Positions 2,171-34,341 of a stretch of DNA of 44,242 nt are shown piece by piece (the first letter of the stretch is position 1; the number at the start of each line of letters is the position of its first letter). The notes under the pieces were generated by a model that saw only the letters and a program-made list of their open reading frames with translations, had not been told where the DNA came from and searched no databases. This stretch comes from Candidatus Omnitrophota bacterium (GTDB taxonomy: Bacteria; Omnitrophota; Gorgyraeia; Zapsychrales; Zapsychraceae). The position numbers and the translations under genes were made by a program. The stretch covers positions 1-44,242 of the forward strand of contig JADFYJ010000019.1 in the NCBI GenBank assembly GCA_015233115.1, given 5' to 3'.

Positions 2171-2193
2171 CTCTTTCAGTAGACCTTCGAGTA

Positions 2194-2231
2194 AAGACAG
2201 ACACTTTTTTAAAAAAGGTGCATGTCTTTTT
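2194..2231 (+). terminator. Rho-independent terminator
   Basis: AAGACA and CACTTTTTT pair with AAAAAAGGTG and TGTCTT with little interruption, followed by a T run. It closes the toxin/immunity gene group. Confidence 0.7.
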
Positions 2232-2240
2232 GTAATGCCC

Positions 2241-2268
2241 CCATTACATAAGAAGTTTTAAGTTAATA
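2241..2268. other. Possible dif-like site (weak)
   Basis: Left arm CCATTACATAA, core GAAGTT, right arm TTAAGTTAATA: the same 11-6-11 layout as the sites in the island further right. It lies just after a terminator, as several island sites do. The core is unique, and the site stands outside the island, so chance similarity in AT-rich DNA is possible. Confidence 0.35.
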
Positions 2269-2374
2269 CCTTTTTTGTTCGTTTTCATCACTTTCTCTTC
2301 CTTCCCTTGATATAAAATTATATACTATCTCTATATCCCTAGTGTGCTGTTAATCCGGAGGGAAACTTAATCAC

Positions 2375-13614: not shown

Positions 13615-13896
13615 GTGATAAAATCATTTAAAGATAAAGAAACCGAAAAAATTTATCATCGGATCTTTTCTAAAGAGCTGCCTGGAAGTATTCAACAAGT
13701 AGCTCTAAGGAAATTAAGAATGATTGACAGTGCAATTACTCTCGCTGATTTAAGGGTTCCGCCTAACAATCGGCTGGAAAAATTGAAAAGAGAGCGGAAG
13801 GACCAACACAGTATTAGGATCAATGACCAGTGGCGCGTTTGTTTTAAGTGGCACGAAAATGACGCCTACGATGTTGAAATCGTTGACTACCATTAA
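13615..13896 (+). CDS. higB: HigB-type toxin (RelE superfamily mRNA interferase)
   Basis: This 93-residue basic protein has RLEKLKRERKDQHSIRINDQ followed by WRVCFKW and VEIVDYH, the hallmark end of HigB/RelE ribosome-dependent RNases. The start is GTG 13615 just after the promoter/operator, so the leader is nearly absent. Toxin-before-antitoxin order is typical of higBA. Confidence 0.9.
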   Translation: MIKSFKDKETEKIYHRIFSKELPGSIQQVALRKLRMIDSAITLADLRVPPNNRLEKLKRERKDQHSIRINDQWRVCFKWHENDAYDVEIVDYH

Positions 13897-13908
13897 GGAG
13901 TGAGATAT

Positions 13909-14208
13909 ATGATTAAAAAATTATCGCCAATTCATCCAGGAGAAGTATTGAATGAAGAATTTTTAAATCCTCTCGGGATCAGCCAGAATAAAATCGCCAG
14001 AGATATAAAAGTGCCCCCGCGACGGATCAATGAAATCGTTTTAAAGAAACGCCGCATTACTGCTGACACGGCGCTACGGTTGGCATGTTACTTTAAAACA
14101 TCGCCTCAGTTTTGGATGAACTTGCAATCAGCTTTCGATTTAGATCTTGAGATCGATGAAGTAGGAAATCAAATAGTAAAAGAAGTTCATGAATATGCAG
14201 TAAATTAA
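13909..14208 (+). CDS. higA: HigA-type antitoxin (XRE family)
   Basis: The antitoxin has 99 residues from ATG 13909, preceded by AAGGAG. PIHPGEVLNEEFLNPLGISQNKIARDI and RRINEIVLKKRRIT form the helix-turn-helix of HigA/VapI antitoxins. It neutralises HigB and should bind the palindrome upstream of higB. Confidence 0.9.
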   Translation: MIKKLSPIHPGEVLNEEFLNPLGISQNKIARDIKVPPRRINEIVLKKRRITADTALRLACYFKTSPQFWMNLQSAFDLDLEIDEVGNQIVKEVHEYAVN

Positions 14209-14220
14209 TTAAGGAAAATA

Positions 14221-14251
14221 GGCCGGTTTAAAAAACTGGCCTTTTTGATTT
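14221..14251 (+). terminator. Terminator of higBA
   Basis: GGCCGGTTT pairs with AAACTGGCC across a 3-base loop (one G-T pair), followed by TTTTTGATTT. Confidence 0.85.
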
Positions 14252-14258
14252 ACTTCCA

Positions 14259-14286
14259 ACTCATCATAACGTATGTTATCGAGAGT
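14259..14286. other. dif-like site, core CGTATG
   Basis: Left arm ACTCATCATAA, core CGTATG, right arm TTATCGAGAGT. It follows the higBA terminator. The flanks (TTCCA before, TCA after) resemble those of the 15398 site. Confidence 0.65.
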
Positions 14287-14476
14287 TCACTGATTACGAT
14301 CTATTCCGTCCGTCGTATGTCCCGCTAGCACCACTATCCCACATTACAATACCCTCTGGAATTGACTTTTAATTTGGGGCAAAGACCCGCTTTGCCCCCC
14401 AACCCTTTAATTGATTGATCTCAAAAAGCTCAATGATTCAATTCAAAGACTCTTTCCACGAATAGCCAAATAGTTT

Positions 14477-14504
14477 TGTTCGCAAAATCTGTATTATGCG
14501 AACA
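14477..14504. other. Palindromic dif-like site, core TCTGTA
   Basis: Left arm TGTTCGCAAAA, core TCTGTA, right arm TTATGCGAACA. The arms are inverted repeats with one mismatch; the right arm read backwards (TGTTCGCATAA) is close to the E. coli XerC arm. It could instead be an operator for the next gene pair, 20-50 bases away. Confidence 0.5.
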
Positions 14505-14524
14505 TTTATAGTGAATGGTTTATA

Positions 14525-14593: not shown

Positions 14594-14995
14594 ATGACGG
14601 TATTAAAAATAAAACCACATGCGAAGGTAGCCGCCAAGGTTAGGGGCTTTAGATCTGTCGGCTTTAAACACACTCAGTCTTGTGAATGCGGGAAATTTGA
14701 AATAAAAAAAGATTTTAAAGCTTTAGATTCTCGAACAATTGATGCAAAAAGCCGGATTACTCTCTCGCCGACGTGGACAAAAAGCATAAGTTCGCGCCCG
14801 ATCCGGTCATTTCAAATATTTCAAAACGAAGATGGTGATATTTTGCTAAGGCCCGAAGTAACTATTCCGGCCCGCGAAGCCTGGATCTTTGAAAACCCTA
14901 AAGCATTAGCTAGTCTCGGGAAGGGCATCAAGGAAATCGACGAAGGGAAGGGGGAGGTTGTTAAAGATCTGGACGCCTTCTTGAAAAAAATATGA
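14594..14995 (+). CDS. Antitoxin with AbrB/MazE-like DNA-binding segment
   Basis: The protein has 133 residues with an excellent ribosome site (AAGGGGGGG). SRITLSPTW and the FQIFQNEDGDILLRP strand pattern suggest a swapped-hairpin AbrB/MazE-type fold in the middle (about 52-85). The C-terminal ENPKALASLGKGIKEIDEGK resembles toxin-binding tails of antitoxins paired with RelE-like toxins. A CECG motif near residue 30 is unusual. Its stop overlaps the next ATG (ATGA). Confidence 0.7.
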   Translation: MTVLKIKPHAKVAAKVRGFRSVGFKHTQSCECGKFEIKKDFKALDSRTIDAKSRITLSPTWTKSISSRPIRSFQIFQNEDGDILLRPEVTIPAREAWIFENPKALASLGKGIKEIDEGKGEVVKDLDAFLKKI

Positions 14996-15291
14996 TTTTT
15001 GAACTGGAATTCTCCCCAGAATCCAAACTTCAATTGGCAAACTTAAAGCACGATCCAGGATTAGAAAAACGTTATAAAGCAGTCAGCAAAGCGCTTAAAT
15101 ATTTAGAAACAAATCCGAAGCATCCGAGCTTGAACGTACATCCCTTCGAATCATTTTTAGGTCCTCGTGGCGAAAAAATTTGGGAAGCATATGCAGAAAA
15201 TAATACCCCAGGCGCGTATAGAATTTTCTTCTCTTATGGCCCGGGAAAAAGAATGATCAGTATTTTGACGGTAATCCCACACCCGGATTAG
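14992..15291 (+). CDS. RelE-like toxin
   Basis: The protein has 99 residues: FELEFSPESKLQLANLKHD at the N-terminus, the GEKIWEAYAE strand, then YRIFFSYGPGKRMISILTVIPHPD, a RelE/ParE-superfamily end with a terminal His. It overlaps the antitoxin by four bases. Likely an RNase toxin acting on translation. Confidence 0.75.
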   Translation: MIFELEFSPESKLQLANLKHDPGLEKRYKAVSKALKYLETNPKHPSLNVHPFESFLGPRGEKIWEAYAENNTPGAYRIFFSYGPGKRMISILTVIPHPD

Positions 15292-15358
15292 TGGAAAAAG
15301 GTAATTTTCTGCTCAAATGGCACTACAGAGCACGACTGTTGGTTTTACCCCTAAAAAA

Positions 15359-15387
15359 GGCTGGTTAAAACAAACCAGCTTTTTTTA
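15359..15387 (+). terminator. Terminator after the AbrB-like/RelE pair
   Basis: GCTGGTT pairs with AACCAGC across a 6-base loop, followed by TTTTTTTATTT. Confidence 0.85.
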
Positions 15388-15397
15388 TTTATCTTCA

Positions 15398-15425
15398 ACT
15401 TATCATAATGTATATTAAGATAAGT
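15398..15425. other. dif-like site, core TGTATA
   Basis: Left arm ACTTATCATAA, core TGTATA (same as E. coli dif and the 17147 site), right arm TTAAGATAAGT. The inverted repeat extends outward (TTCAACTTATC/GATAAGTTGAA). Confidence 0.75.
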
Positions 15426-15448
15426 TGAAAAGCTTTCCTCGACGGAAG

Positions 15449-15721
15449 TTACGATGAAAACGATATTTTCAAATTTTTCCGAAACGCCCTCGCAATTCTC
15501 GTTAATGTCCCAACATTGAAATTTTTATAATTTCCGCTCTCATAACGAACAATGGCCGTCCGACTTGTCTTCACTTTTTGGGCAAGTTCTAATTGGCTCA
15601 TCTTCGCCTTATGTCTTAATTCCGCTATTTGTTCTCCAATGCTCATATTTGCGGACGCTTCGTCGTAAACAGCTTTAAATTTTGAATTTTCCATTTCTTT
15701 ATCAAATATTGATTTGCGCAT
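15449..15721 (-). CDS. XRE-family antitoxin
   Basis: This 90-residue protein has a clear helix-turn-helix (MSQLELAQKVKTSRTAIVRY, about 41-60) in the C-terminal half and a degradable-looking N-terminal extension. It follows the toxin gene by 11 bases on the minus strand. It should repress from the palindrome at 16127-16148. The gene ends 24 bases from the dif-like site at 15398. Confidence 0.85.
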   Translation of the reverse strand: MRKSIFDKEMENSKFKAVYDEASANMSIGEQIAELRHKAKMSQLELAQKVKTSRTAIVRYESGNYKNFNVGTLTRIARAFRKNLKISFSS

Positions 15722-15732
15722 TTTTTGCCTCC

Positions 15733-16101
15733 TTATAAATATTCTTCTCGTATTTTTATCGCTTTTTGTAATTCATTTTGATCGAGTTTCTGTTTCTTTT
15801 TTGTGTGGCCTGATGTGATAATTATTTTCTGTCCGGAAAAAAAGAAGCAGAAGAACCGTTCTTTTTTGGGCTTAAAACAATATATTTTGTTCGCCCGATC
15901 CTCTATACGAAACTTCGTCTCATCATAAATATGACCAATATCCGCAATTCTTTTTACAAGAAATAATAAGCTCGCTCTTGTCGCATCGTTGCAGTCTTTG
16001 TAATAGTCATATACTTTCGAAGATTCATTGGTTTCCCCATGAAAAAAGACCGAATATCGTTCGCCAGAATATACAAGAAAATTTTCGTAATGAGCTGACA
16101 T
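15733..16101 (-). CDS. Gp49-like/HigB toxin
   Basis: The protein has 122 residues. KIYCFKPKKERFFCFFFSGQKIIITSGHTKKKQKLDQNELQKA matches the pattern of Gp49-like HigB toxins (beta strands, then G-x-x-KK-x-QK and an A-x-x-R-x-x-Y helix). It is paired with the XRE antitoxin downstream; the toxin is first in the operon. Confidence 0.8.
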   Translation of the reverse strand: MSAHYENFLVYSGERYSVFFHGETNESSKVYDYYKDCNDATRASLLFLVKRIADIGHIYDETKFRIEDRANKIYCFKPKKERFFCFFFSGQKIIITSGHTKKKQKLDQNELQKAIKIREEYL

Positions 16102-16158: not shown

Positions 16159-17121
16159 TTAATAATTGACTTTAAAAGTGGGGGAGTCGGCCAGATTATT
16201 TCCACGCTTATCGTAAATTCTCGTCGTCTGGATGTTCGCGTGGCCAAGATAATCCTGGACTTTCCCCAAATCCGCATGATTGGTCAGGGTGTTAGTCGCG
16301 AACGTCGCTCGCAAACTATGCGGATGAAAATTTTCCGTGTTAATCCCAACAGCTCGAGCGTAAAACATGACGATTTCGTAAATCGCGTTGCTCGACATGT
16401 GTTTCACTTGCCCATCGCTGTCTTTGTGTCTCCTCAAGGCGCAGAAGAGGGGGGACTCTAAATCGTCCATCCGCCTGTCTTTTTCTAAATATGTGTGGAT
16501 CCGTTGTACCGTAAAAGGGTGGAGGGGAAGGTCCCGCGTTTTAGACCCTTTGCCTTTTACGCGTAAGTATGGCGCGCCTTGAACCGTATGAATACTGCTC
16601 ACTTTAAGGTCTTTGACTTCTGATCGCCGTAATCCGTGATATAAAAATACCGACAGAATCGCCCGATCCCGCAATCCTCGAATGGAAGAATCATCCGGCG
16701 CGTCAAGGAGCTTCTTGGCTTCGGTGTCGCTGATCGCGTCCGTTTTCCCGATGTTGGATTCAACTTTAGGACGCGTGATGTTCGTGCAGGGATTGTCTTT
16801 TAACGCGGATCGTTCACAAAAATATTTAAAAAGGGAGGAGACGGCCGACACTTTTCTCGAGATTGTCTCGTTGGTTAATTTTTGTTTTTTGAGATGTGCG
16901 ATCCATTCGGCAATGTGTTTATGCGTAACCCTGCGGTATTCTTCCGGATTTTTAATGCCGACAAAATTTTTGAATTCATTAACATCGAACTCGTACGCAG
17001 ACGCCGTGCGCTCGCTACGATTGCGCCGTTCTTTAATCCAATCGGTTTCCGGAGGAACATCTTTTAAGGTGTGATAGTCTTCTTTGTCGATTAGCCTTTG
17101 AGGGCTGGTTTCTTTGGGCAT
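16159..17121 (-). CDS. Xer-like tyrosine recombinase 1
   Basis: This 320-residue site-specific recombinase has a SAM-like N-terminal core-binding domain (about 30-115) and a C-terminal catalytic domain. All catalytic residues are present: R165 (GLRRSE), K191 (GKGSK), H268 and R271 (HSLRAT), H294 (LGHANIQTT) and nucleophile Y303. Its size is that of XerC/XerD. It is divergent from a paralogue whose start is 115 bases away, and a dif-like site lies between them. A housekeeping Xer role is possible, but the location in an array of dif-like modules suggests a dedicated module recombinase. Confidence 0.9.
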   Translation of the reverse strand: MPKETSPQRLIDKEDYHTLKDVPPETDWIKERRNRSERTASAYEFDVNEFKNFVGIKNPEEYRRVTHKHIAEWIAHLKKQKLTNETISRKVSAVSSLFKYFCERSALKDNPCTNITRPKVESNIGKTDAISDTEAKKLLDAPDDSSIRGLRDRAILSVFLYHGLRRSEVKDLKVSSIHTVQGAPYLRVKGKGSKTRDLPLHPFTVQRIHTYLEKDRRMDDLESPLFCALRRHKDSDGQVKHMSSNAIYEIVMFYARAVGINTENFHPHSLRATFATNTLTNHADLGKVQDYLGHANIQTTRIYDKRGNNLADSPTFKVNY

Positions 17122-17146
17122 GAAAGAATTGTATCACAAAAACCTT

Positions 17147-17174
17147 ACTGGTGATAATGTATATTATAATAAGT
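17147..17174. other. dif-like site between the two recombinase genes, core TGTATA
   Basis: Left arm ACTGGTGATAA, core TGTATA, right arm TTATAATAAGT. E. coli dif has the same core and the same ATAA/TTAT arm ends. It lies in the recombinase intergenic region, upstream of both genes. Confidence 0.8.
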
Positions 17175-17209
17175 TAATAAAGTTTGATTTTTTTAATAAA
17201 TTTTCGAGG

Positions 17210-17215
17210 TATAAT
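17210..17215 (+). promoter_or_regulatory. -10 element for recombinase 2
   Basis: A perfect TATAAT stands 22 bases before ATG 17237. The -35 is poor (TTGATT at 17184, spacer 20). The dif-like site lies just upstream, so recombinase binding could affect expression. Confidence 0.45.
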
Positions 17216-17236
17216 ATAACGAAACCCCGAGCAAAT

Positions 17237-18181
17237 ATGCTTAAAAATGCCCCTACAGCCCCGAACTTAGCTCTCTTAAGCCATGACCTAGTCAAATATT
17301 GGCTTAAGAACATCAATTCCGCGGCCTCAAGAAGCAGCAAACAAACGGATCTGATTCAGTTTTTTTCTTATACTAAAGTCAAATCTATTGATGATTTTAA
17401 AAATATTAAACGATCAGACATCATCGATTGGCGCGATTATTTGATTGGAGATAAAAAAAATCCTCGGTATGCACCGCGGACGGTTAAGCGAAGGATATCA
17501 ACTATCTCAAAATTTTTCGAATATCTTTGTGATCAAAAACTTGTCGAAACAAATGTTGTCCTTGGTGTTCAGCGGCCCAAATTAACAACAAGCGAAGGAG
17601 CAACGTCAATTATCAGCGATCGTCAAGCTAAAGACCTGCTGGATGCTCCAGATCCAACCACAATAAAAGGAAAACGTGATCGAGCGATCTTAGCGACATT
17701 TTTATATCATGCTTTAAGACGCTCCGAGTTATGTAAACTACAGGTTAAAGACATTCAGGAACGTGAAGGCATAAAACATTTCAAAATTTATGGGAAAGGT
17801 TCTAAGGAAAGATATGTCCCCGTCCACCCGACGGCGCTTACCCGAATTGCCGACTATTTAGAAACCGCTGGTCATAAAAATGAAAAAGAATTCGCGCTCT
17901 TTAGGCCTTTAAGCAGAAACATTCCATATCCAAGTAAAGGCCTCTCTCCTATCGCTGTTTATGATTTAGTTAAACACTATGGCATGAGAGTCGGGATTGA
18001 TGTTTCGAATATCTCTCCCCACTCTCTTCGAGCGACGGCCGCGACAAACACGTTATTGAATGGTGAAGATCTAAGGAAGGTCCAGCAATGGCTGGGGCAT
18101 GCGAATATTCAGACTACTGCGATGTATGACAAGCGGGACAACCGGCCGGAGGATTCCCCGACGTATCGGGTGAGGTATTAG
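17237..18181 (+). CDS. Xer-like tyrosine recombinase 2
   Basis: The protein has 314 residues from ATG 17237. The frame is open back to a TTG at 17114, but that extension would run through the dif-like site and promoter, so the later start is chosen. Catalytic residues are R161 (ALRRSE), K187 (YGKGSK), H262/R265 (HSLRAT), H288 (LGHANIQTT) and Y297. It is clearly paralogous to recombinase 1, especially in the C-terminal half (MYDKR, DSPT). A pair of different recombinases with one site between them parallels the XerC/XerD/dif division of labour. Confidence 0.9.
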   Translation: MLKNAPTAPNLALLSHDLVKYWLKNINSAASRSSKQTDLIQFFSYTKVKSIDDFKNIKRSDIIDWRDYLIGDKKNPRYAPRTVKRRISTISKFFEYLCDQKLVETNVVLGVQRPKLTTSEGATSIISDRQAKDLLDAPDPTTIKGKRDRAILATFLYHALRRSELCKLQVKDIQEREGIKHFKIYGKGSKERYVPVHPTALTRIADYLETAGHKNEKEFALFRPLSRNIPYPSKGLSPIAVYDLVKHYGMRVGIDVSNISPHSLRATAATNTLLNGEDLRKVQQWLGHANIQTTAMYDKRDNRPEDSPTYRVRY

Positions 18182-18194
18182 CTCTTTGGTTTGT

Positions 18195-18608
18195 TTATTT
18201 TTTTGAGGGAAGATCCTTAGTGCTCTTTCTAGCATATATTGGGACACTCGCTTCAACCCTTCCATCGACCACGATATCAACAACGTATTCACCTTCTTTT
18301 GGAAAAACAACACTTTGCCCATTTAACGCAAAAGAAAAAGAAGGTTTTGAAGATGATTCATTTAAAGCATTAACTGGGATATTTAAATCTACGTTCAATA
18401 ACTTTTTCCCGTCAGCATCTGAGAGAGAGAGAATTAATTTATGTGCACCTCCTTCTGCTCTTTCAAAAAGTAACCGTAAGGCAATACTCAATCTTGGCAT
18501 TTGGTAAGGAAACTGTGGAGCATTAATCGTGTCAAATGTTCTACAAAGGGATAAACACCCATTCTCCACCCAAGCATGCTCAGCTACAGCGGCTATTAAA
18601 ATTTTCAT
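18195..18608 (-). CDS. DUF6941-like protein of unknown function
   Basis: This 137-residue soluble beta-rich protein follows the pattern of the DUF6941 family as I recall it (a short N-terminal strand, CLSLCRTFDTINAPQFP, then a beta sandwich ending in EGEYVVDIVVDGR). AAGGAGAG precedes the ATG. It is convergent with recombinase 2 with a 13-base gap. Function is not known to me. Confidence 0.6.
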   Translation of the reverse strand: MKILIAAVAEHAWVENGCLSLCRTFDTINAPQFPYQMPRLSIALRLLFERAEGGAHKLILSLSDADGKKLLNVDLNIPVNALNESSSKPSFSFALNGQSVVFPKEGEYVVDIVVDGRVEASVPIYARKSTKDLPSKK

Positions 18609-18719: not shown

Positions 18720-19190
18720 TTATTTGTTGCCATTTACAAAACGGTTGTCCCCTTGCCGAGATGAAGAGAGAAAACCTTCCTCCGCATTGTTTTGTACCAA
18801 ATTAACCGAAAAGTTGTGAGAATAAATATTTGTAATGCGCCTTAATTTTTCTTCTGCTTCCGCACCAGAAAGTTTTGCAACAACATACTGATTTAAGGAA
18901 ACGCCTTCTTTCGCAGCAACCTCAGCCAACCTCCGGTGTAATGACTTCGGAATACGAATGCGAAACTGACCGCTATACGTCTCCGCCACATCAGGATCTG
19001 GCAATTGCTCTCCCGTTTCTTGGAATGTCTTTAAGAAGGCCTGAATCGCAACGGAAGCTTCATGGAGCGCTTCTTCTTTCGTATCGCCAAACGCCATAAG
19101 TCCGTTGAAAACTGGCGATGTAGCAACAAAAGATTTGTCTTCCTCACTCCAAACAATATTAAGAGAGTATTTTTCTATATTATTATCCAT
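18720..19190 (-). CDS. hicB: HicB antitoxin
   Basis: The protein has 156 residues: an N-terminal partial RNase-H-like fold (YSLNIVWSEEDKSFVATSP, GDTKEEALHEA) and a ribbon-helix-helix/arc-like segment (FRIRIPKSLHRRLAEVAAKE, then GVSLNQYV) as in the long HicB class. It overlaps hicA by 8 bases. About 35 C-terminal residues beyond the DNA-binding part are of unknown role. Confidence 0.9.
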   Translation of the reverse strand: MDNNIEKYSLNIVWSEEDKSFVATSPVFNGLMAFGDTKEEALHEASVAIQAFLKTFQETGEQLPDPDVAETYSGQFRIRIPKSLHRRLAEVAAKEGVSLNQYVVAKLSGAEAEEKLRRITNIYSHNFSVNLVQNNAEEGFLSSSRQGDNRFVNGNK

Positions 19191-19476
19191 TTTCGCCCCC
19201 TCCTTCTTTTATCTTCTCCAACAAATCGTAACAATCTATAATTTCTAAAACTTTCCTTACTTGATATGGTTTTGCTTTCCCATCTTTAAATTTTTGAACA
19301 TTCAACATGCTATCAGTTATATTTTTTATTTCTGAATGTTTGTAAATAACGTGGGAAGAACCTCCCCCCGCGCGAAGAACATACCCTATTTTTTCAATAA
19401 GAAAACATAGATCATCAAAAGAAACATTCGCTTGTGAGTTTTGTGCTTGAAAATAAATTTTGGACTCTCTTTTCAT
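19183..19476 (-). CDS. hicA: HicA toxin (mRNA interferase)
   Basis: The protein has 97 residues with a double-stranded-RNA-binding-like fold. The catalytic His is H42 in GGGSSHVIYKH, the HicA signature. The N-terminus is a little longer than minimal HicA proteins. GAGGTGATGA precedes the ATG. It is first in the hicAB operon, just after its promoter/operator. Confidence 0.85.
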   Translation of the reverse strand: MKRESKIYFQAQNSQANVSFDDLCFLIEKIGYVLRAGGGSSHVIYKHSEIKNITDSMLNVQKFKDGKAKPYQVRKVLEIIDCYDLLEKIKEGGGENG

Positions 19477-19640: not shown

Positions 19641-19648
19641 AAACTCTT

Positions 19649-19676
19649 AATCATCATAATAACCGTTTTGATAAGC
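19649..19676. other. dif-like site, core TAACCG
   Basis: Left arm AATCATCATAA, core TAACCG, right arm TTTTGATAAGC. The right arm matches those at 28647 and 29406. Confidence 0.7.
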
Positions 19677-19730
19677 AGATCCCCCAGACGAGCTATTAGT
19701 TGTGCTTGCTTTTTCGTGGGAAGATCACCT

Positions 19731-20634: not shown

Positions 20635-20641
20635 GATCTTC

Positions 20642-20669
20642 CCTTATCATAATCACCGTTTAATAACCT
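20642..20669. other. dif-like site, core TCACCG
   Basis: Left arm CCTTATCATAA, core TCACCG, right arm TTTAATAACCT. It lies directly upstream of the 148-residue ORF. Confidence 0.65.
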
Positions 20670-20805
20670 ATTTTTCCGTCGGAAAAGAAAAACCCGTGCC
20701 CAGCATTTGCCAAGCGACGGTTTAAATTTTTTTCAATAACGTCTATTACGAACATAATTCACTATGTCCCATTATAAATGTCAATTTCAATGTTAACCGT
20801 CCGCC

Positions 20806-21072
20806 CTACCCCCTGTTTAATTTTTTGTAAACTTCGTCATCGTTACGTTTATCAACCAGCGCAATTTTAAGAGTGTTTTGTTCAACCCTATACACGATTC
20901 GGTATTCTCCAATATCCGCCCGCCAATAAGGATACCCGTGTAACGGTTTGGCGTCCCCTGGTTTTGGATCTTCCATGAGCGAGAAGATCTTCTTAACAAC
21001 CTGACGGAATTGTTTGGGGTCTAATTGGCCTAGAAAATTCTTTGCTTGATGTGTAAGGTCAAGAGAAAGCAT
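20806..21072 (-). CDS. relE: RelE/ParE-family toxin
   Basis: The protein has 88 residues. FLGQLDPKQFRQVVKKIFSL, then KPLHGYPYWRADIGEYRIVY, and a final LVDKRNDDEVYKKL are diagnostic of RelE. The start codon follows the antitoxin stop by one base. Ribosome-dependent mRNA cleavage is the known activity of the family. Confidence 0.9.
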   Translation of the reverse strand: MLSLDLTHQAKNFLGQLDPKQFRQVVKKIFSLMEDPKPGDAKPLHGYPYWRADIGEYRIVYRVEQNTLKIALVDKRNDDEVYKKLNRG

Positions 21073-21073
21073 T

Positions 21074-21310
21074 TTATTTGGACTTTAAAAACTCGGCGGA
21101 TTCTTTCTTCCCGATGTAACCTGTCTTCTCTGCTTTACTGGCCTTTTGAGCCCAGTAAGCATCTTCTAACGAAGTCAATCTTTCGTATTCTTTAGCAGAA
21201 ACCATGACCGCAACCGATCGTCCGGTTTTTTCAATAAACACGGGCCCTGAAATAGACTCTTCTAAATATTGCCCAAAATGATTTTTAATTTCAGTAGCTG
21301 TTATTTTCAT
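21074..21310 (-). CDS. Phd/YefM-type antitoxin
   Basis: The protein has 78 residues from the ATG at 21310 (GGGAGG upstream). The open frame to 21361 covers the promoter and is not used. ITATEIKNHFGQYLEES and VAVMVSAKEYERL are Phd/YefM hallmarks. It is first in the operon and the likely autorepressor. Confidence 0.9.
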   Translation of the reverse strand: MKITATEIKNHFGQYLEESISGPVFIEKTGRSVAVMVSAKEYERLTSLEDAYWAQKASKAEKTGYIGKKESAEFLKSK

Positions 21311-21332
21311 ATTTTTCTTACCTCCCGCAACA

Positions 21333-21361
21333 AGTATAGCTAAATTAGCTAAATTAGTCAA
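21333..21361 (-). promoter_or_regulatory. phd-relE promoter with direct-repeat operator
   Basis: On the minus strand TTGACT (21361-21356) and TATACT (21338-21333) are exactly 17 bp apart; the spacer is a direct repeat AATTTAGCT-AATTTAGC. Confidence 0.75.
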
Positions 21362-21747: not shown

Positions 21748-21900
21748 CTAACATGTTCCAACTCTGACTTTCCATAATCTCAGTTTTGTTAATCTTTTTG
21801 ATCCATTTTTCCCAATTATCAAAGAAAGATCTACTTCCAGATAAATTGAAAAGCCTTTGAGTAGGTGATAATTTTCAATTTTAATTTTAAATATTTTCAT
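21748..21900 (-). pseudogene. Truncated N-terminus of a RecF/SMC-like AAA ATPase
   Basis: Eight bases after the methylase stop, an ORF of 50 codons starts MKIFKIKIENYHLLKGFS and reaches VDLSLIIGKNGS, the classic opening of RecF/OLD/SMC-type ATPases. The next residues should be GKS of Walker A. Instead the frame runs into the dif-like site at 21767-21794 and ends after 15 unrelated codons. It is the third gene of the helicase-methylase operon, cut off at the site. Confidence 0.7.
21767..21794. other. dif-like site, core TCTCAG
   Basis: Left arm ACTTTCCATAA, core TCTCAG, right arm TTTTGTTAATC. It marks the break of the ATPase gene. Confidence 0.75.
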
Positions 21901-21908
21901 TTCTGATT

Positions 21909-24900
21909 TTAACCATTCCTCACGATTTTCTTTTCTTCTTCGGTTAAACCATAAAGATTAAATATCATTTCATTAATTCTATTTTCATAGACTGCAATAT
22001 CGACATCAAAATCTTTTTCTCTAACTTTTATTATATTTGTGACCATTTGAACAAAAGTTTTTTGATCTTTTTCTGGTATAACTTTAATAGGTATTTTTTT
22101 TAAGTCAGAAACTAAAACCTTAGGAAATAATTTCTTCTGTGATTTAGGATTTCTTTTATGATGAAGCCAAGTAATTAAAAAGGAATTTATAAAAGCGAGA
22201 ATATAATAGGGGTGTAATGAAGTTTCTTTTAATTTGATAGGAATAACGTCTCTGCTATGGTAAAGCTCAGCGTCACAGTAAGCCGCGACAATCTCTTTTT
22301 TCTTTCCACCTGTTATTTCCTGAACCAAAATTCTTTTCCCAACAAAATTATTTGGATCTCTCGAAGCAGCTAACCAGCTTCCATATTTAATCCACCGATC
22401 GCCTTTGAAATCTATACAGTATTTCTTTAAATCCCTACCGATTATTTCTGGCTTCCATTCCTGAGATAATTTAACGTTAGAATGATATGGTTTTTCTTCA
22501 ACCGTCTTTTTTGTATGTGTCCCACCTTCGGGTTTTACACCTTTTCCAACCTCATAGGGGTTATATCCTGAACATGGTTTAGAAAAGTCTTCTAAGGGAG
22601 ACGATTGATCCCAAATTTTCTGTATTATATTTGTGTCTGAATTATTTTCAAAAACTCCGATAAAATAATCGTTATTAATAAATTTCATTCTTGAATAGTC
22701 TACTAGCTTTACTGGAGTACTTGGAAAATTTTCAAGAGCATCAAAAACTTTAACATTAATAATGTCACAAGGGTTTCTTTGTATAAGCGAAATCAAATTA
22801 TTAACATCTGCGCCCATAAATATTTTTCCATCAAACCAACATATCTCTGAAATGTAATATTCATCCAGAATAAATTTTCTTAAAGCTTTAGCAGATGGAA
22901 TAGTCAACCATGTAACAGGAGCAATAAAAGACAAAACCCCTTTACCCGTAATCAATTTAATTGCCTTCTCATAAAAAAGTAGGTAGTGATCAAAACTTCC
23001 TTTTATCGTCTTAAAACTTTTTTTATAGGAATCTTTCAATTCTTTAGTATGTATCTGATGAAACCCATACGGCGGATTACCGATGACCACATCAAACCCT
23101 CCCTTTTCCTTAAACACTTCGCCGAAGTGCAGTTTCCATAAAAAGAATGGTTTGATATTGGCCTTTTTATGCTGACGAATACGTGTTAAAGCGTCTTCTT
23201 TATTTTGTTCTTTAAGCGTTGTTTCGATTAAATCCCATTCCAGTTCTTCAATGCGTTTTTTAAGCTGTTCTTTGCGGGTTTTGCTGACAGCGGAAGGAAA
23301 TTCGTCGTATAAACTTTGTAGTTCCTTGCGTCTTTCTTTTGCTTCATTTTGCATCTCAAAAAATGACAATTCATCATCCGCAACCAAAGAAGGCTGTTTT
23401 AACTTTTTAATTCTCTTATCAATTTTCCTAAGTTGCTCATCAAATAACTTTCGCTTATCCTTCGTCAGATTATTCTTTTCATTTAACAAAAACATTTCTT
23501 TACCCAATACGTCACGCTCTTTTTCAAGACGTTCAATATGCTTATGATTATCCAGCGCATCCTCGATCAATGATTCATCAAACAACTTAATTCCTTCAAA
23601 TTCTTCCAGAAGGCTGTTACCCTGCATGATCTTGTAATCCAAATTGGGCAATGGCTTGATTTCTTCCGTGTCCTCTTCATCCACAACCAAGGAAAGCCAT
23701 AGCCGCAGTTTAGCAATTTCAACCGCACCGGGGTCAATATCAACCCCGTAAAGGGAATGCCCGATAGCCTGAAGTTTAAAGTCATAGAGTGTTCGATCGC
23801 GTTTTGTAGAAAGATAATTAGTAAGGATATTGCGGGCACGAAAAATTTCATTCATCATGCCAACCAAAAACGCGCCAGAACCCACCGCTGGATCGCACAC
23901 CCGCACATCAGAGAGTTTTTGATCAATTTCTTTCGCGTTCGCGCGAATTGTCTCGCCAATGGCATGACGGTAATCACGGGTTTCTTTTCCTTCTTTAATG
24001 ATGCGCGCTTCATGTTCAATAATCATTTCACCGTGGCGAATAAATTCTTCCAGCTCTTTCCTGTTCACTTTCTCGCCACATTCGGTTGCCAGATAATTGA
24101 TCAAACTTTCCTGGCACATGTAATGCACAATTTGACGGGGCGTATAAAACGCGCCTTTGGATTTGCGATCTTTGACGCCCAAAAGATTTTCAAAAACTTT
24201 ACCGAGCATTTCAGGGTCAACGGCAACTTCTTTTTCCAACGGCTCATCTTCTTTAACCGTGAAATTAAAACGGTCAAAGACATCCAACACCCCTGTGCCA
24301 ATATCGCCTTGTTTGGTTTTTGTTTTATTTGAGAATAATTCGTTATCGAGAAGAATATCAGTCGTTTGCCATGAGTAGCCATTTAACGGTTCAAATAACC
24401 CTCCGTTAAGAAACGGAATGCGACATTGGAATTTATCCCAATACGCGTTCTGCCCCCTATCAGTTGCCAAAGCTTCGTAAAATAACGGTTCAAGCACGTC
24501 GTTAAAGAAGTTCTTATAATCAACGATTTCTTTATTAAATAACCGACGCAAAAAATCCTTATGCCCGGTTCCCCAAGATTCCCCCTTATCAGCGCCAAAC
24601 CAACCTTTTTTCTGTAGAAAATAAAGAAAAACAATCTGCCCAAGAAGTTTTTTGGCAAAATCAACCGTATCAACCCCGCACCGTTCGAAATCCGCTTTAA
24701 TTTTGGTATCGTTCTCAACATTGGCATCCAGAGATTCTTTAATTAGTAAATAAAGCTCGCGATAACGTTCAAAGAATTCTTGCGAAACCTTTTCGATATA
24801 AAATACTTCTTCAATATCTTTAAATGAAGGCTGATTAACATCCTGAGACAGAAGAGCAACCAATTGACGCTGGGCAGTGTGACTGTTTTCATGCTCACCG

Positions 24901-25367
24901 ACAAGGAATGAATAGCGCTTGGCAGGGGTAAAATCTTCTTTTGCTTTAAACGATCCCTTGTCCGTTTGCTCAAATGTGTATTCCATTTTCACAAATGAAA
25001 AACGCCAGTCCGCCGGATCCGGGGCAACAAAAGCTACCAAAGCGGCATCTTTCTCTCCACGGTCCTTTAAATATCTGGCGACAAAATTACGCTGTGCCGT
25101 TCTGGCTCGAACCAAAGACGTTTCTTTTTGCAGATATACAACAAGCATGTCCAGCACTTTGTCGCCCGCGTCTTTATACTGCCCCACACACTCGTAAGAT
25201 TTGATAAATTCCTTAAAACTGTCTTTGATGTATTGCCCGTGATAATGAAATGTTTTGGAAAAGTCAGTAGTGTGAAACGAGTTTTTCAGAAAGACGATCA
25301 ACTGATCTTTGTTAAACTCGCCTTGAAACGTATCCTGAATCAGTTTTCTGGCCTGGTCTTTATTCAT
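21909..25367 (-). CDS. Eco57I-like DNA methylase/restriction subunit
   Basis: This 1152-residue protein has adenine N6-methyltransferase motifs: motif I DPAVGSGAF at about 492-500 and motif IV NPPY at 764-767. The ~400-residue N-terminal part is helical, a ~150-residue charged coiled region splits the methylase (about 600-740), and the C-terminal part resembles target-recognition regions (GRDLKKYCIDFKGDRWIKYG). No nuclease motif is clear. It follows the PLD-helicase gene by 5 bases, so both are one operon. It should modify or recognise foreign DNA. Confidence 0.85.
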   Translation of the reverse strand: MNKDQARKLIQDTFQGEFNKDQLIVFLKNSFHTTDFSKTFHYHGQYIKDSFKEFIKSYECVGQYKDAGDKVLDMLVVYLQKETSLVRARTAQRNFVARYLKDRGEKDAALVAFVAPDPADWRFSFVKMEYTFEQTDKGSFKAKEDFTPAKRYSFLVGEHENSHTAQRQLVALLSQDVNQPSFKDIEEVFYIEKVSQEFFERYRELYLLIKESLDANVENDTKIKADFERCGVDTVDFAKKLLGQIVFLYFLQKKGWFGADKGESWGTGHKDFLRRLFNKEIVDYKNFFNDVLEPLFYEALATDRGQNAYWDKFQCRIPFLNGGLFEPLNGYSWQTTDILLDNELFSNKTKTKQGDIGTGVLDVFDRFNFTVKEDEPLEKEVAVDPEMLGKVFENLLGVKDRKSKGAFYTPRQIVHYMCQESLINYLATECGEKVNRKELEEFIRHGEMIIEHEARIIKEGKETRDYRHAIGETIRANAKEIDQKLSDVRVCDPAVGSGAFLVGMMNEIFRARNILTNYLSTKRDRTLYDFKLQAIGHSLYGVDIDPGAVEIAKLRLWLSLVVDEEDTEEIKPLPNLDYKIMQGNSLLEEFEGIKLFDESLIEDALDNHKHIERLEKERDVLGKEMFLLNEKNNLTKDKRKLFDEQLRKIDKRIKKLKQPSLVADDELSFFEMQNEAKERRKELQSLYDEFPSAVSKTRKEQLKKRIEELEWDLIETTLKEQNKEDALTRIRQHKKANIKPFFLWKLHFGEVFKEKGGFDVVIGNPPYGFHQIHTKELKDSYKKSFKTIKGSFDHYLLFYEKAIKLITGKGVLSFIAPVTWLTIPSAKALRKFILDEYYISEICWFDGKIFMGADVNNLISLIQRNPCDIINVKVFDALENFPSTPVKLVDYSRMKFINNDYFIGVFENNSDTNIIQKIWDQSSPLEDFSKPCSGYNPYEVGKGVKPEGGTHTKKTVEEKPYHSNVKLSQEWKPEIIGRDLKKYCIDFKGDRWIKYGSWLAASRDPNNFVGKRILVQEITGGKKKEIVAAYCDAELYHSRDVIPIKLKETSLHPYYILAFINSFLITWLHHKRNPKSQKKLFPKVLVSDLKKIPIKVIPEKDQKTFVQMVTNIIKVREKDFDVDIAVYENRINEMIFNLYGLTEEEKKIVRNG

Positions 25368-25372
25368 AATTA

Positions 25373-28300
25373 TTATCCTATAAAATACTCTGACAATACA
25401 ACTTCACGCGGTCCGGCTGTGCGCGCAGAAAATTCTACGGCATGTTCTTCCAGTAATTCTTCCGCAATGTTAACCTGCAAAATTGAAACCATCTTAACGG
25501 CATTGATTTCTTTCTTAATTTCTTTTTCTAAAAGCTGAAGAACTGTTTTAGCTATCTGCCGGGGGATTGCGCCCTCCTCCAAGCGTCTTATGACCGTCTT
25601 CAAATAACTTTCCTGTTCATCCGTTAACTGTCGTAAATCTTTGATAGCTTTGAGTAGTTTTAAGATTTTTGTGACAGTATCCCGTCCACCTTTGCCTTTT
25701 AATTCAACTGCCTCTTCCATGGTGGCGTAAAGAAACGCCTGTTTATTTTCTTCAAGACATTGATAAAAATGATCCGTTAGTTTCATTTTTTGTATTTCAG
25801 GTAAAGCCTGAAGCATTTTAGCCGCGGCAATAAAGTCAAGTTCGTCTGTCTTTTGCCCGTCAGTAATAAAAAACTTTTCTAGTTTTCCTTTACGAAAATA
25901 AGTTAGTAATTGATCGGCATGCGCCTTGACTTTGCGTGATGTGCGGCATTTTTGAGGCAAGCGTTTTATTTTGGCAAATAAATCCGGCTCCTGATCCCGA
26001 ATATCACGAATAACTTTAAGATAGGTTAAATCACTTTCATCAAGATTCTCTTCTCCGGTTAATGTTTCTTTTGACACCAAACGGCTGAATAGTTCATGAG
26101 ATTCAATCTCTTCTCCATCGGTTAACAGTTTTGCGTCAGCACCAAGCATTGAAATAAACGCGTTGATTTTGGCTTCAGCGGCTTCTTTAAGTTTGATTTG
26201 ATCATTAGATTGAACAGTAGGGAAAAAATTGAATGTGTAAATTTTATCAAACGTCGTATCAACGCGATTGATACGCCCCACCCTTTGCATCAATCGTGTG
26301 GGATTCCACGGAATGTCATAATTGATAACCACATTGGAGCGATGAAGGTTGACTCCTTCAGAAAGCACTTCGGTTGTGATAAGAATGCGATAATCGTTCG
26401 CCTGATGACGAACTTTTGCATCAAAATTATCCACCACTATCTGCCGAAAAGTGTTTGAAGTTGATCCCGTAAAGAGCAAAACCTCTTCTTTGAGTTCTTT
26501 TTGAATACGCGCGGAAATATATTCAGCGGTTTCTTTTGACTCGGTAAACACAATAAGCTTATTAGATTTCAAGACAGCTTTATTCTTTAAAGCATGGATA
26601 AATTCTTCGAGTTTCGGATCGCGTGTGATTTGCTTCCACAAAGATTGAATGTCTTTCAAAATTTTAAGATCATTTTTTAGGCGGTCATAAAACTCCGGTT
26701 TAAAATCCTTCGCGTCATAACGCTTAGCTTTTTCAGAATCAATTAATTCCTGAATAGCTTTGTCGTCATCAGATTCAATGAGTTCGAATATTTTGTTAAT
26801 ATATTTTTTACTGACATATACATTCCCATTCTCACACTCGGTGATAAATTTTTCATAGGAAATGATCGTTCGCTCAATTGTTTGTTTAAAAGCGTAAAAA
26901 CTGCTTTCCAGACGTTTAATAAACAAAATTTTGATAAATTTACCCATGTTTTTCTGAGCTTGTTCATCGGATTGTTGAATCTCACCTTTATAGAGGGTTA
27001 AAGGCATGTACCGTGCGTATGTAAATTTCTGCGCGATCAGTTCGATTGTATCGGTGAATATTTCATCTTCTTCATCGTTGAGTTGATAAAGCAAAGGCTT
27101 AGGCGAAGCGACATCTGGAAACTTCATGCCTTGTCGGGCCAGGTCATCGCCAAAAAAAGCCTCAATTTCTTTACGTGTACGCCGTACCATTAAATGCTTC
27201 AGTACTTTGTCACGAATCTCTCTTGCATTGGCTTTGGCGACTGCCATATATTCATCACGGTCACGCTTTCGATCAAGCTTCTTCAATTTTCTGTCTAATT
27301 CATTAAAGAACCGCTCAAGATCCGGAACGTTTGGAATTGTACTTTTGCGTGTATTTTGAAATAACTTTATTTGGCTAAGAATATCCAGAGGAGAATTGTT
27401 AAAAGGAGTGGCCGTAACGAGTATGACTCGTTTCCCTCGACAAATTTGCGCAAGTTTAGTATAAGTAACATTATTTTCCGAGCGAAAGCGATGCGCTTCA
27501 TCAATGATGATATTCTTATACTTCTCAACACCTTGCTTAATAAGTAAATCGAGTTTACCGATAGACTCATAATCAGCCGCTTCTTTAAAATCAGAAAACG
27601 CGTTAGGCCATGATCCAGGATTGCTTCTTTCTAAAAGCACAGGCGGAGCAAGAACCAGTGTGCGCCCATCACGAAGCTGACTAGCTAATAATGTCGCGAT
27701 ATATGTTTTTCCCAAACCCACAACATCTGAAATAAAGACCCCGCCATATTCTTCTAATATCTTTTTTGCGTTAATAACCGCTTGCTTTTGATATTCCAAT
27801 TCTTTATAGCTCTCAGGAATATATTTCATGATTACATCTTGCCCTTGAGCAAGGTCTTCCTTGAAATATTCATATAAAAACTTCAGATACAATTCATAAG
27901 GAGTAACTGAATCATTAAGCCATGTTCGATCATTGATTGTTTCAAGATATTTATCTTTAAGATCAACTGCATCTTCCCAAAGCTGATTGAATTTATCGTG
28001 TGCAAACTGATAATCCGCGCGATTTTTTAGCTCAACATTAAATTCAAGATTATCTATTAGTCCAGATTGTGTGAAGTTACTTGATCCCGTTATAACGCGC
28101 CCAGTATCACGGTCATCTTCCAAAAACGTCATAATATAAAGTTTGGCGTGAAGGGTTTTTGATGGATAGGCTTTGATTTCCAGCTTACCCGACCTAAGCC
28201 ATTCAATGAATTTTTGGATGCCTTTTTCAACTTGGACAGAATCATCAGATGTTTTAAGCTCTTCAGCAACAATGTCTCCGAATGTTTCTCTGGCTTCCGG

Positions 28301-28546
28301 ATGGCTAAAGTCAATTTCGTGCTGAGCTGACACAACTCGATCGTGTGTTTGTTTATCAGTATTTATTCCAATAAGGATACGAATTTTTTCAGTATCTTCC
28401 AAAGATGTGTAAAGGGCATGAAAACCGCTTGTATAAAAATAACCAACAAGTGCATCAAAAAAACGCGTGCTTTTAATCAGCACACGGAAGCGTTCGGCCA
28501 AATTTTTATTTTTTTCATTAGTGATAAAGGTTAAGTCAGAAGACAT
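25373..28546 (-). CDS. PLD-nuclease/SNF2-type helicase fusion
   Basis: This 1057-residue protein has an N-terminal phospholipase-D-like nuclease domain with a single HKD-type motif (H133-x-K-x-Y, then GSSNF near 154-158). A superfamily 2 helicase follows: Walker A GLGKT 277-281, DEAH 349-352, ATPFNNS, a C-terminal RecA domain with IVFTESKETAEYI, and motif VI MQRVGRINRVD. In DISARM and related systems similar parts are separate proteins. With the methylase downstream it forms a restriction-like antiphage operon. Start ATG has GGAGA in front. Confidence 0.9.
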   Translation of the reverse strand: MSSDLTFITNEKNKNLAERFRVLIKSTRFFDALVGYFYTSGFHALYTSLEDTEKIRILIGINTDKQTHDRVVSAQHEIDFSHPEARETFGDIVAEELKTSDDSVQVEKGIQKFIEWLRSGKLEIKAYPSKTLHAKLYIMTFLEDDRDTGRVITGSSNFTQSGLIDNLEFNVELKNRADYQFAHDKFNQLWEDAVDLKDKYLETINDRTWLNDSVTPYELYLKFLYEYFKEDLAQGQDVIMKYIPESYKELEYQKQAVINAKKILEEYGGVFISDVVGLGKTYIATLLASQLRDGRTLVLAPPVLLERSNPGSWPNAFSDFKEAADYESIGKLDLLIKQGVEKYKNIIIDEAHRFRSENNVTYTKLAQICRGKRVILVTATPFNNSPLDILSQIKLFQNTRKSTIPNVPDLERFFNELDRKLKKLDRKRDRDEYMAVAKANAREIRDKVLKHLMVRRTRKEIEAFFGDDLARQGMKFPDVASPKPLLYQLNDEEDEIFTDTIELIAQKFTYARYMPLTLYKGEIQQSDEQAQKNMGKFIKILFIKRLESSFYAFKQTIERTIISYEKFITECENGNVYVSKKYINKIFELIESDDDKAIQELIDSEKAKRYDAKDFKPEFYDRLKNDLKILKDIQSLWKQITRDPKLEEFIHALKNKAVLKSNKLIVFTESKETAEYISARIQKELKEEVLLFTGSTSNTFRQIVVDNFDAKVRHQANDYRILITTEVLSEGVNLHRSNVVINYDIPWNPTRLMQRVGRINRVDTTFDKIYTFNFFPTVQSNDQIKLKEAAEAKINAFISMLGADAKLLTDGEEIESHELFSRLVSKETLTGEENLDESDLTYLKVIRDIRDQEPDLFAKIKRLPQKCRTSRKVKAHADQLLTYFRKGKLEKFFITDGQKTDELDFIAAAKMLQALPEIQKMKLTDHFYQCLEENKQAFLYATMEEAVELKGKGGRDTVTKILKLLKAIKDLRQLTDEQESYLKTVIRRLEEGAIPRQIAKTVLQLLEKEIKKEINAVKMVSILQVNIAEELLEEHAVEFSARTAGPREVVLSEYFIG

Positions 28547-28619: not shown

Positions 28620-28629
28620 AAAACTCTCA

Positions 28630-28657
28630 ACTAACCATAATCTCAATTTTGATAAGT
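28630..28657. other. dif-like site, core TCTCAA
   Basis: Left arm ACTAACCATAA, core TCTCAA, right arm TTTTGATAAGT. The NUDIX stop codon begins on its last base. Confidence 0.75.
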
Positions 28658-29397
28658 TAAGTTCCCACTGATTCTTCCTCAATTTCCGTCGGAAGACCTC
28701 GTTTTGCAGAATCACCCCTAATCGCTTTTATATGATCATAATACGGACCCGGTGCATATTTATTGCATACGTCGATAACCTCTTTTAAATCCTTAGTGGA
28801 AAAACCGTGTTCCGGAACGACAAAATAAACCGTATGATCTTCACTACAAACTGTCCCGCGGTCAACCTCATAATACGGCAATCCATATTCTGAAATATTT
28901 AAAACATATCTGTCAACCGTCGGACTAACAGCTATCTTCTTCCATTTTTCGTATAACGGAATTTTTAGGCAGGCAAAGGTAAAAGCCTTTTCAATCAAGA
29001 TTTTTAAATTATCGAAAGGCAGAAACTTTTGCGCATCAATACTTCTCGTCCATTTATATTCCGTTATTTCCTTCCCATCGGGTTTAACGTCTTTTTCTTT
29101 TGTCTCGACTAAGAAATATACTGAATGCTTTTCAATTTCACTCCCCGCGCTCAAACCCTGATTGCTTTTCGCTTTATAGACAAGCTCTTCACGAAACCCA
29201 GTAATAAATGTTAGGTCCGTTAAACCTGTTTCTTCTCTTATTTCTCTTAAAGCGGCCTCTTTTTCGGATTCACCTGGTTCGATGTGACCTTTAGGAAATC
29301 CCCATTCTTAGTTTCTGTCGCTAAAAAGCGTCAAAAACATCGGGCACCTATTTTCTTTCCTAAAAATTATAGCGCCTGCTGAAATTTCTTTTTCCAT
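28657..29397 (-). pseudogene. NUDIX hydrolase gene with an internal in-frame stop
   Basis: From ATG 29397 the frame reads MEKEISAGAIIFRKEN, then TAA at codon 30 (29310-29308), then EWGFPKGHIEPGES and the complete Nudix box G-x5-E-x7-REIREETGL (codons 37-59), continuing without further stops to 28657. The intact part matches Ap4A-hydrolase-like NUDIX proteins (EITEYKW). About 105 extra C-terminal residues are of unknown type. A single substitution would restore it (TAA for TAT or TAC is likely). The start codon lies inside one dif-like site and the stop at the edge of another. Alternatives are a sequencing error, or expression only of a C-terminal piece. Confidence 0.8.
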
Positions 29398-29416
29398 AAT
29401 CTCAATTTTGATAACT
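29389..29416. other. dif-like site, core TCTCAA
   Basis: Left arm TTTTTCCATAA, core TCTCAA, right arm TTTTGATAACT. It supplies the ATG of the NUDIX gene on the minus strand (TTATGG). Confidence 0.75.
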
Positions 29417-29425
29417 CGAGCTTCA

Positions 29426-29453
29426 ACCTATTATAATCTCAGTTTTAGAAAAC
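29426..29453. other. dif-like site, core TCTCAG
   Basis: Left arm ACCTATTATAA, core TCTCAG, right arm TTTTAGAAAAC. Only 9 bp separate it from the previous site. Confidence 0.65.
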
Positions 29454-29543
29454 TATTTCTTCGTCGATAACAATTCAAGTCGTGATTTAAAATCCCTTGT
29501 CCCTAAATAAAAAATCCACGCATTAACCAGGCTCTGTCTGTTA
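29453..29543 (-). pseudogene. Frameshifted C-terminal end of the DUF262-HNH gene
   Basis: If one G of the GGGG run is skipped, QKG continues as NRQSLVNAWIFYLGTRDF and runs to TAG 29455-29453. CNxxKGNR is a usual HNH ending, and the stop meets the dif-like site edge, as in the NUDIX module. Confidence 0.6.
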
Positions 29544-31538: not shown

Positions 31539-31605
31539 CTTATCCTCCAACTATTGTTTCATTCCTTGATAATTTGTTTTCGTAAAAACACTCTTATATC
31601 GTCGG

Positions 31606-34003: not shown

Positions 34004-34314
34004 TTTTGCATCGCTTTCTTTACAATTGGAGCAACCGTATGCCTATTGATATTCCTTTTCTTGCAGTAGTCTGAGTTTAGCCAATCGAAAAGGAGTTTTG
34101 TGCCCTTGCTAGAGTTACATGCAGCACAACATCGAGCAATATTTTCAGGTGTGATGATGCTTGCGTCATTGATAATGTGTTCCCATGTCGCCAGAGACTT
34201 CCGAGAACTTCTAGCCGGAACAGCCTCGAGCAATTGAACACTACAATAAATACAAACTTTATCTCGAGCTCTAACTTCTTCTTCAAGCCATTTCGGAATA
34301 CCCCATCGATTCAT
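34000..34314 (-). CDS. HNH endonuclease-like protein
   Basis: The protein has 104 residues: CIYC, then TWEHIIND and NIARCCAACNSSKGTK, a complete HNH/zinc pattern with His in EHI and the final Asn. It lies between the macroglobulin gene (27-base gap) and pbpC (4-base overlap), so it is transcribed and probably translated with the cell-wall genes. This position is unexpected for a nuclease; it may be a selfish insertion. Confidence 0.75.
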   Translation of the reverse strand: MNRWGIPKWLEEEVRARDKVCIYCSVQLLEAVPARSSRKSLATWEHIINDASIITPENIARCCAACNSSKGTKLLFDWLNSDYCKKRNINRHTVAPIVKKAMQK

Positions 34315-34341
34315 AATATTTTCTGCCTGTTATTCTTAAAA

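Follow-up and report, generated by a model that had tools for sequence, protein, structure and literature searches.

A divergent pair of Xer-like recombinases and a row of dif-like sites between defence operons in an Omnitrophota bacterium: a probable non-housekeeping cassette system

Two genes for Xer-like tyrosine recombinases, R1 and R2, lie divergently in a draft genome of Candidatus Omnitrophota, and the gap between them holds a site resembling dif of E. coli (site C). Is this an ordinary chromosomal dif with its recombinase pair, or a dedicated system of another kind? The whole stretch of DNA analysed, here called the window, is 44,242 nucleotides of contig JADFYJ010000019.1, and its features are listed in Table 1. 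The initial annotation had described two divergent recombinases around a 115-bp gap with a dif-like site, each paralogue keeping R-K-H-R-H-Y. Coordinates and alignment agreed with this. The start codons are 115 bp apart, with the R2 ATG at 17237; the R2 frame stays open further 5' (TTG 17114, ATG 17120), and aligned relatives begin near 17237. R1 and R2 share 40-43% identity, and the catalytic residues are invariant alignment columns in both (R2 numbering: R161, K187/K190, H262, R265, H288, Y297). Box II reads HxLRAT, not HxLRH; together with a strongly kept C-terminal tail, DSPT[FY][KR]VxY, it is a candidate family signature. Directly behind R2, on the opposite strand and after a 13-bp gap, lies a gene for a DUF6941 protein (18195-18608), a possible partner of the platform.

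Site C could be the ordinary chromosomal dif and R1/R2 its XerC/XerD pair, oddly placed: the core is the same as that of E. coli dif, two paralogues are present, and gene direction flips at the site. The initial annotation had made the matter depend on whether separate housekeeping xerC/xerD genes and a separate dif exist, and on whether the site lies at the GC-skew terminus beside the only Xer proteins. The assembly (37 contigs, 91% complete, 2.39 Mb) contains four genes with the recombinase domain. One of them, at C2:84236, is a separate XerD-type gene (TIGR02225, 388.8 bits vs a cut-off of 329.6), whereas R1 (187.7/184.1 bits) and R2 (157.8/167.1 bits) both fail the XerC/XerD cut-offs of 335/330. 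A separate dif of the usual form, CCTATAATATATATTATGTTAAC, was found at C35:118607. This type occurs about once per genome and is conserved in 28 of the 31 genomes of the GTDB family, with arms CCTATAA / TTATGTTAAC that differ from the arms of the window (ACTTATCATAA). Genes of the R1/R2 family, far from near-universal among relatives, are present in 3 of 384 genomes of the class, namely this genome and two relatives. In other contigs the GC skew is mostly +-0.12 to 0.2 and tracks gene direction; in the window it is near 0 in the left half, with its plus-strand genes, and about -0.16 in the right half, with its minus-strand genes. This reads as a single unchanged leading strand on both sides, with no strand switch at site C, and by this measure, in a fragmented assembly, the window is not a terminus. 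R1 and R2 are not housekeeping Xer proteins and site C is not the chromosomal dif; on the cut-off results, the skew and the separate conserved dif, we rejected the ordinary-dif reading and give it next to no probability.

Relatives of R1/R2 (42-49% identity) were found on 136 plasmid records, mostly from Pseudomonas, and the family occurs in at least 378 genome stretches from Proteobacteria, Verrucomicrobia, Chlorobi, Nitrospirota, Acidobacteria, Planctomycetes and others. In a quick tree with long branches, R1 joined the recombinase of G029, a draft assembly of a relative in the same GTDB family (branch value 99), and R2 joined that of genome G324 (100). All housekeeping Xer proteins fell outside the R1/R2 group (88 for the whole group, 99 for the housekeeping side). 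Sequence comparison places R1 and R2 in a non-housekeeping, plasmid-borne family apart from the housekeeping Xer proteins. A phage integrase identity was rejected, the best phage and viral matches having about 25-36% identity and falling outside the group. No transposase was detected among the open reading frames around R1/R2, which separates them from the resolution systems of Tn3-family elements (TnpI, TnpS/TnpT), nor in the annotated plasmid neighbourhoods of relatives apart from one IS5. The open literature that we searched, subscription journals and preprints aside, held no description of the R1/R2 family or of such a platform.

Nearly every family member stands as a lone gene, normally with one palindromic site (arm-ATAA-N6-TTAT-arm) upstream, and palindromic sites of the ACTTATCATAA type adjoin R1/R2 relatives on plasmids. 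Strong palindromic sites numbered 78 vs 1 in a reversed control, and in 56 of 79 loci a palindromic site lay no more than 1 kb upstream of the recombinase gene. The outer arms vary by locus (ACTATTG, GTGGTG, ACTCACG, ACCCATG and others) yet remain palindromic, as expected if a single protein binds both arms. The P. syringae-type site is found on about 100 Pseudomonas records, about one per plasmid, its apparent presence in 'two places' arising merely from palindromy; this frequency suggests that its plain role on plasmids is multimer resolution. Outside G029, G324 and Nitrosospira/Nitrosovibrio, most loci have one convincing site. The single gene with a single site mostly seen outside this lineage and Nitrosospira would, taken alone, suggest plasmid resolution only. 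A search of family loci for a second copy of the gene, and of 384 phylum and 384 class genomes, gave no other divergent pair. The pair with its shared asymmetric site was found in the window alone, and R1 and R2 possibly form a heterodimer.

What, then, is site C? Its core is exactly ATAA-TGTATA-TTAT, and the 14-mer ATAATGTATATTAT at 17154-17167, which has one exact copy in the window and one with a single mismatch (15405), is identical to the centre of E. coli dif. The outer arms pair at only 4 of 7 positions, unlike those of most of the family, around the usual ATAA-N6-TTAT core. The R2-side arm, AACTTATTATAA, matches the G324 arm at 11 of 12 positions; in the R1 direction the spacer is TATACA, as at the R1-like gene of G029. 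The left arm, TACTGGTGATAA, fits both reference arms poorly (8 of 12 to each). Because its arms belong to a different palindromic family (ACTTATCATAA and similar), site C is not specially E. coli-like by descent, and in this respect the initial annotation's wording, an E. coli-like dif site, is not supported.

Site C is also one of several such sites, a series that the initial annotation had overlooked (sites A, B and D to H in Table 1). Across the 2.39-Mb assembly ATAANGTATRTTA has three exact copies, each at this locus and in plus orientation (14266, 15405, 17154), and a reversed control pattern has none. AAAAYTGAGATTAT has exactly four copies in the genome, all at this locus and all on the minus strand; they represent the same site type, its spacer here being TCTCAR. 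To avoid circularity, we built a consensus, NACTTATCATAA-N6-TTATGATAAGTN, solely from sites of two other genomes. With up to 5 of 22 mismatches it matched the window six times (sites B, F, C, D and A, and position 26911), vs no match in a 348-kb control of the same genome. The 26911 match has five mismatches and lies inside a gene, and was not counted as a site. All eight sites (A-H) are intergenic in a region only 14% intergenic; AT-rich motifs do favour intergenic DNA, loose ATAA-N6-TT motifs being intergenic in 12 of 31 cases. The window sites are not uniform: some are degenerate, one core being TTTT in each of F, G and H, and the array may therefore be an old one that is no longer fully functional. 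Counts from a promoter and terminator scan did not exceed those in shuffled controls.

Table 1. Recombinase genes, sites and neighbouring genes in the window (positions count from the first nucleotide of the window)
Feature	Coordinates	Strand	Remarks
HigB toxin (PF05015) + HTH antitoxin	13615..14208	+	
Terminator-like hairpin GGCCGGTTT..AACTGGCC	14220..14242	+	immediately 5' of site A
Site A: AACTCATCATAA CGTATG TTATCGAGAGTT	14258..14287	+	match to other-genome consensus
Possible extra site (uncertain): TTGTTCGCAAAA TCTGTA TTATGCGAACAT	14476..14505	.	outer arms a perfect palindrome, one core mismatch
Two-gene TA-like cassette: 133-aa + weakly Gp49-like 99-aa proteins	14594..15291	+	between A and B
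Similar terminator-like hairpin GGCTGGTT..AACCAGC	15352..15387	+	immediately 5' of site B
Site B: AACTTATCATAA TGTATA TTAAGATAAGTT	15397..15426	+	1/22 mismatch to other-genome consensus
Gp49-like toxin (PF05973) + HTH antitoxin	15449..16101	-	between B and C
R1, Xer-like tyrosine recombinase, 320 aa	16159..17121	-	73-74% identity to G029 recombinase
Site C: TACTGGTGATAA TGTATA TTATAATAAGTT	17146..17175	+	between R1 and R2; two arms dissimilar
R2, Xer-like tyrosine recombinase, 314 aa	17237..18181	+	62% identity to G324 recombinase
HicA/HicB pair	18720..19476	-	between C and D
Site D: TAATCATCATAA TAACCG TTTTGATAAGCA	19648..19677	+	4/22 mismatches to other-genome consensus
Possible degenerate site (uncertain): CCCTTATCATAA TCACCG TTTAATAACCTA	20641..20670	+	
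ParE toxin + Phd/YefM antitoxin	20806..21361	-	
Site E: GACTTTCCATAA TCTCAG TTTTGTTAATCT	21766..21795	+	
Type IIG restriction enzyme-methyltransferase + HKD/PLD-SNF2 helicase	21909..28546	-	between E and F
Site F: AACTAACCATAA TCTCAA TTTTGATAAGTT	28629..28658	+	3/22 mismatches
165-aa protein without known family	28657..29154	-	between F and G
Site G: CTTTTTCCATAA TCTCAA TTTTGATAACTC	29388..29417	+	weaker
Site H: AACCTATTATAA TCTCAG TTTTAGAAAACT	29425..29454	+	weaker
GmrSD-type DUF262/HNH protein, NsnA/PD-T4-2-like defence protein	29541..31550	-	after site H

Site C lies in the promoter region shared by R1 and R2, and it might be the operator of a divergent promoter, serving autoregulation with no recombination there. 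Other promoter-like hexamers overlap it, though no more than chance expects. The same sites, however, occur away from the recombinase (A, B and D-H, position 833 of G029 contig C35, and Nitrosospira site 2), and sequence context changes at site edges. Regulatory and recombination binding can coexist, and we hold the operator-only reading to be very improbable.

The segments between the sites hold toxin-antitoxin, restriction and other defence operons. Between F and G, the non-coding stretch 29155-29387 resembles, as judged by eye, a decayed NUDIX (MutT-like) gene. A pair of genes for PBP1C and a bacterial alpha-2-macroglobulin adjoins the island at 31892-39219. PBP1C, on the right side, is missing from the 11 relatives searched, so that synteny revealed no clean empty site that would mark the left and right borders of the array; GspD is conserved.

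Relatives offered a view of what such sites do. In G029, contig C120 (5,340 bp) begins with AACTATTGATAAAATATGTTATCAATAGTT and ends with TTAGTTGCTATAATGTATATTATAGCAACTAA, a site at each end, and encodes a CBASS phospholipase, a cyclase, E1-E2 and JAB proteins together with an R1-like recombinase. The CBASS operon is of type II (L019, 62-4284), with E1-E2 split into consecutive open reading frames at 2023-3039 and 3040-3798. To the left C120 continues into contig C94 or C129, to the right into C35 or C36. Each of the four joins overlaps C120 by exactly 127 bp, a length that presumably reflects the assembler's word size, and the sequences diverge where the site ends on its outer side. These four joins indicate that the stretch bounded by the two sites exists in two copies, each with neighbours of its own. 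The two forks involve sites with different spacers, which leaves single-step cassette excision without an explanation. C94 (L180) is plasmid-like, with relaxase-like, replication-initiator-like and Fic-like genes and an AbiEi/AbiEii pair adjoining the site. C35 carries HicB-like, CorA-like and ClpB-like genes and a second perfect site at 833, about 700 bp on, with the HicB-like gene between the sites; C36 carries a phage-type integrase, then a tRNA-like sequence.

Nitrosospira gave a similar picture. At site 1 of N. multiformis (4 loci), identity was 23-40% over the 60 bp before the site, 97-100% inside it and 73-85% after it. At site 2 (5 loci) identity was 83-97%, both flanks being mostly at chance level, and a VapC-like block, 94.5% identical in two strains, stops at this site. 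A site in N. briensis (L063, 4151-4180) has one TACAGTTGATAA-type arm and another arm near TACCCATGATAA, as though a crossover between sites of two types had produced it. This junction evidence is comparative and comes from relatives rather than from the window's own array; the alignments and contig joins show that, in G029 and Nitrosospira, unrelated stretches of DNA meet exactly at family sites.

The same evidence bears on whether the locus is the remnant of an integrated plasmid, in which R1/R2 and site C merely resolved multimers, defence genes accumulated, and the other sites are chance or degraded sequences. On plasmids each record does have a single gene and a single site (136 gene records), and C94 has rep-like and relaxase-like genes. 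Against this, the independent consensus matched the window six times and the control not at all, the sites lie between operons, and junctions occur in G029 and Nitrosospira. The origin may well be a plasmid, yet the sites have later come to serve as joints, and we consider the remnant reading unlikely.

Modules of a known kind might also be moved by the host's own recombinases, with R1 and R2 as bystanders. The small pdif modules of Acinetobacter plasmids often carry TA genes between two-arm sites with a 6-bp spacer, and rearrange between sites of equal spacer (PMC13141974, PMC6449649). The window resembles them in having TA genes between dif-like 11-6-11 sites (PMC13141974), its modules lying between two-arm sites whose spacer is 6 bp long. 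In pdif, distinct XerC and XerD arms are present, C/D modules alternate, and host XerC/XerD act. In contrast, the arms here are mostly palindromic, as are most sites of the R1/R2 family, the window arms are unlike the dif arms of the GTDB family and the sites match the non-housekeeping family, and in other genomes a relative of R1/R2 has a site of this type immediately upstream. Here, moreover, recombinase genes lie inside the array, even within a cassette (C120 of G029). Movement by housekeeping Xer proteins is, in our view, a slim prospect.

The layout invites comparison with integrons, which likewise combine a recombinase and a neighbouring primary site with successive cassettes, set apart by sites, in which TA and defence genes abound. 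The initial annotation had proposed an integron-like platform built from Xer parts, and this describes the anatomy well. An integron identity was rejected: R1 (69.3 bits) and R2 (55.9 bits) scored far below the integrase_gron cut-off of 265, outside the range of IntI. The window sites look like short, double-strand, dif-like sites rather than the folded attC sites of integrons, which are imperfect hairpins with R and L boxes that fold from the bottom strand; an Rfam search gave no window match of any kind, and the sites are simple palindromes of 30 bp. Unlike integron cassettes, those of the window have their own promoters on either strand and are in some cases many kb long, and there are two recombinases. 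The locus works like Acinetobacter dif modules and is laid out like an integron, and falls outside the defining features of both.

Other Xer and recombinase systems are partial matches. As in XerS/difSL and XerH/difH, a recombinase gene adjoins its site in one module (PMC5357621); those proteins are housekeeping, of about 356 aa, with 31-bp sites, whereas the R1/R2 family (314-330 aa) is patchy and plasmid-borne, has a 12-6-12 palindrome and the DSPT[FY][KR]VxY tail, and occurs beside a normal XerD and dif. The window shares with XerC/XerD-dif two paralogues, a site with dissimilar arms and the spacer TGTATA, but its pair is linked and divergent around the site, and comes from two old plasmid-family lineages that elsewhere are single genes with their own palindromic sites. 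RIT elements and Tn554-type pairs also have several adjacent tyrosine recombinases; compared by gene order alone, they differ in being same-strand operons of the subgroups RitA/B/C or TnpA (PMC8138268).

Collectively, these observations favour a dedicated, non-housekeeping Xer-like system, in which R1 and R2 would recombine short arm-spacer-arm sites of 12-6-12 form. About eight such sites lie between TA, restriction and other defence operons, so that the operons would behave as recombining cassettes. We regard this reading as probable. The ancestral form would have been one recombinase with one palindromic plasmid site, whose probable task was to resolve multimers; on some chromosomes that site would later have turned into a joint for cassette exchange between replicons. 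Tyrosine recombinases act as four subunits on two sites, with the crossover inside the spacer. If R1 and R2 are active, as we infer, they may act together as a mixed tetramer in which R2 takes the right arm of site C, AACTTATTATAA, while R1 takes the left, though binding of R1 at TACTGGTGATAA is a guess. Most array sites have R2-type arms (8-12 of 12 positions), and R2 perhaps serves the array for this reason. Cassettes would move via paired crossovers between sites of equal spacer, equal spacers being favoured as demonstrated for pdif (PMC13141974). More tentatively, and with more doubt than belief, we raise the possibility of a third natural kind of cassette platform, self-contained and Xer-like, in which two single-recombinase systems, once separate, were joined at a hybrid site, and a heteromeric recombinase, independently reinventing an XerC/XerD-like division of labour, moves TA and anti-phage cassettes back and forth between chromosomes and plasmids.

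How bacterial defence genes gather and move is an open question that integrons, transposons and phage satellites cover in part. The locus has the appearance of an integron-like mode of collection that has not been described before. The family reaches across many phyla and plasmids, consists of a small recombinase and a 30-bp site at which unrelated DNA is exactly joined, and is accompanied by CBASS, AbiE, restriction and TA genes; it would offer defence genes a general route, and one that is simple to search for. The window itself offers a testable case of how a one-recombinase system can gain a second recombinase and an asymmetric site, a step that XerC/XerD must also have taken at some time.
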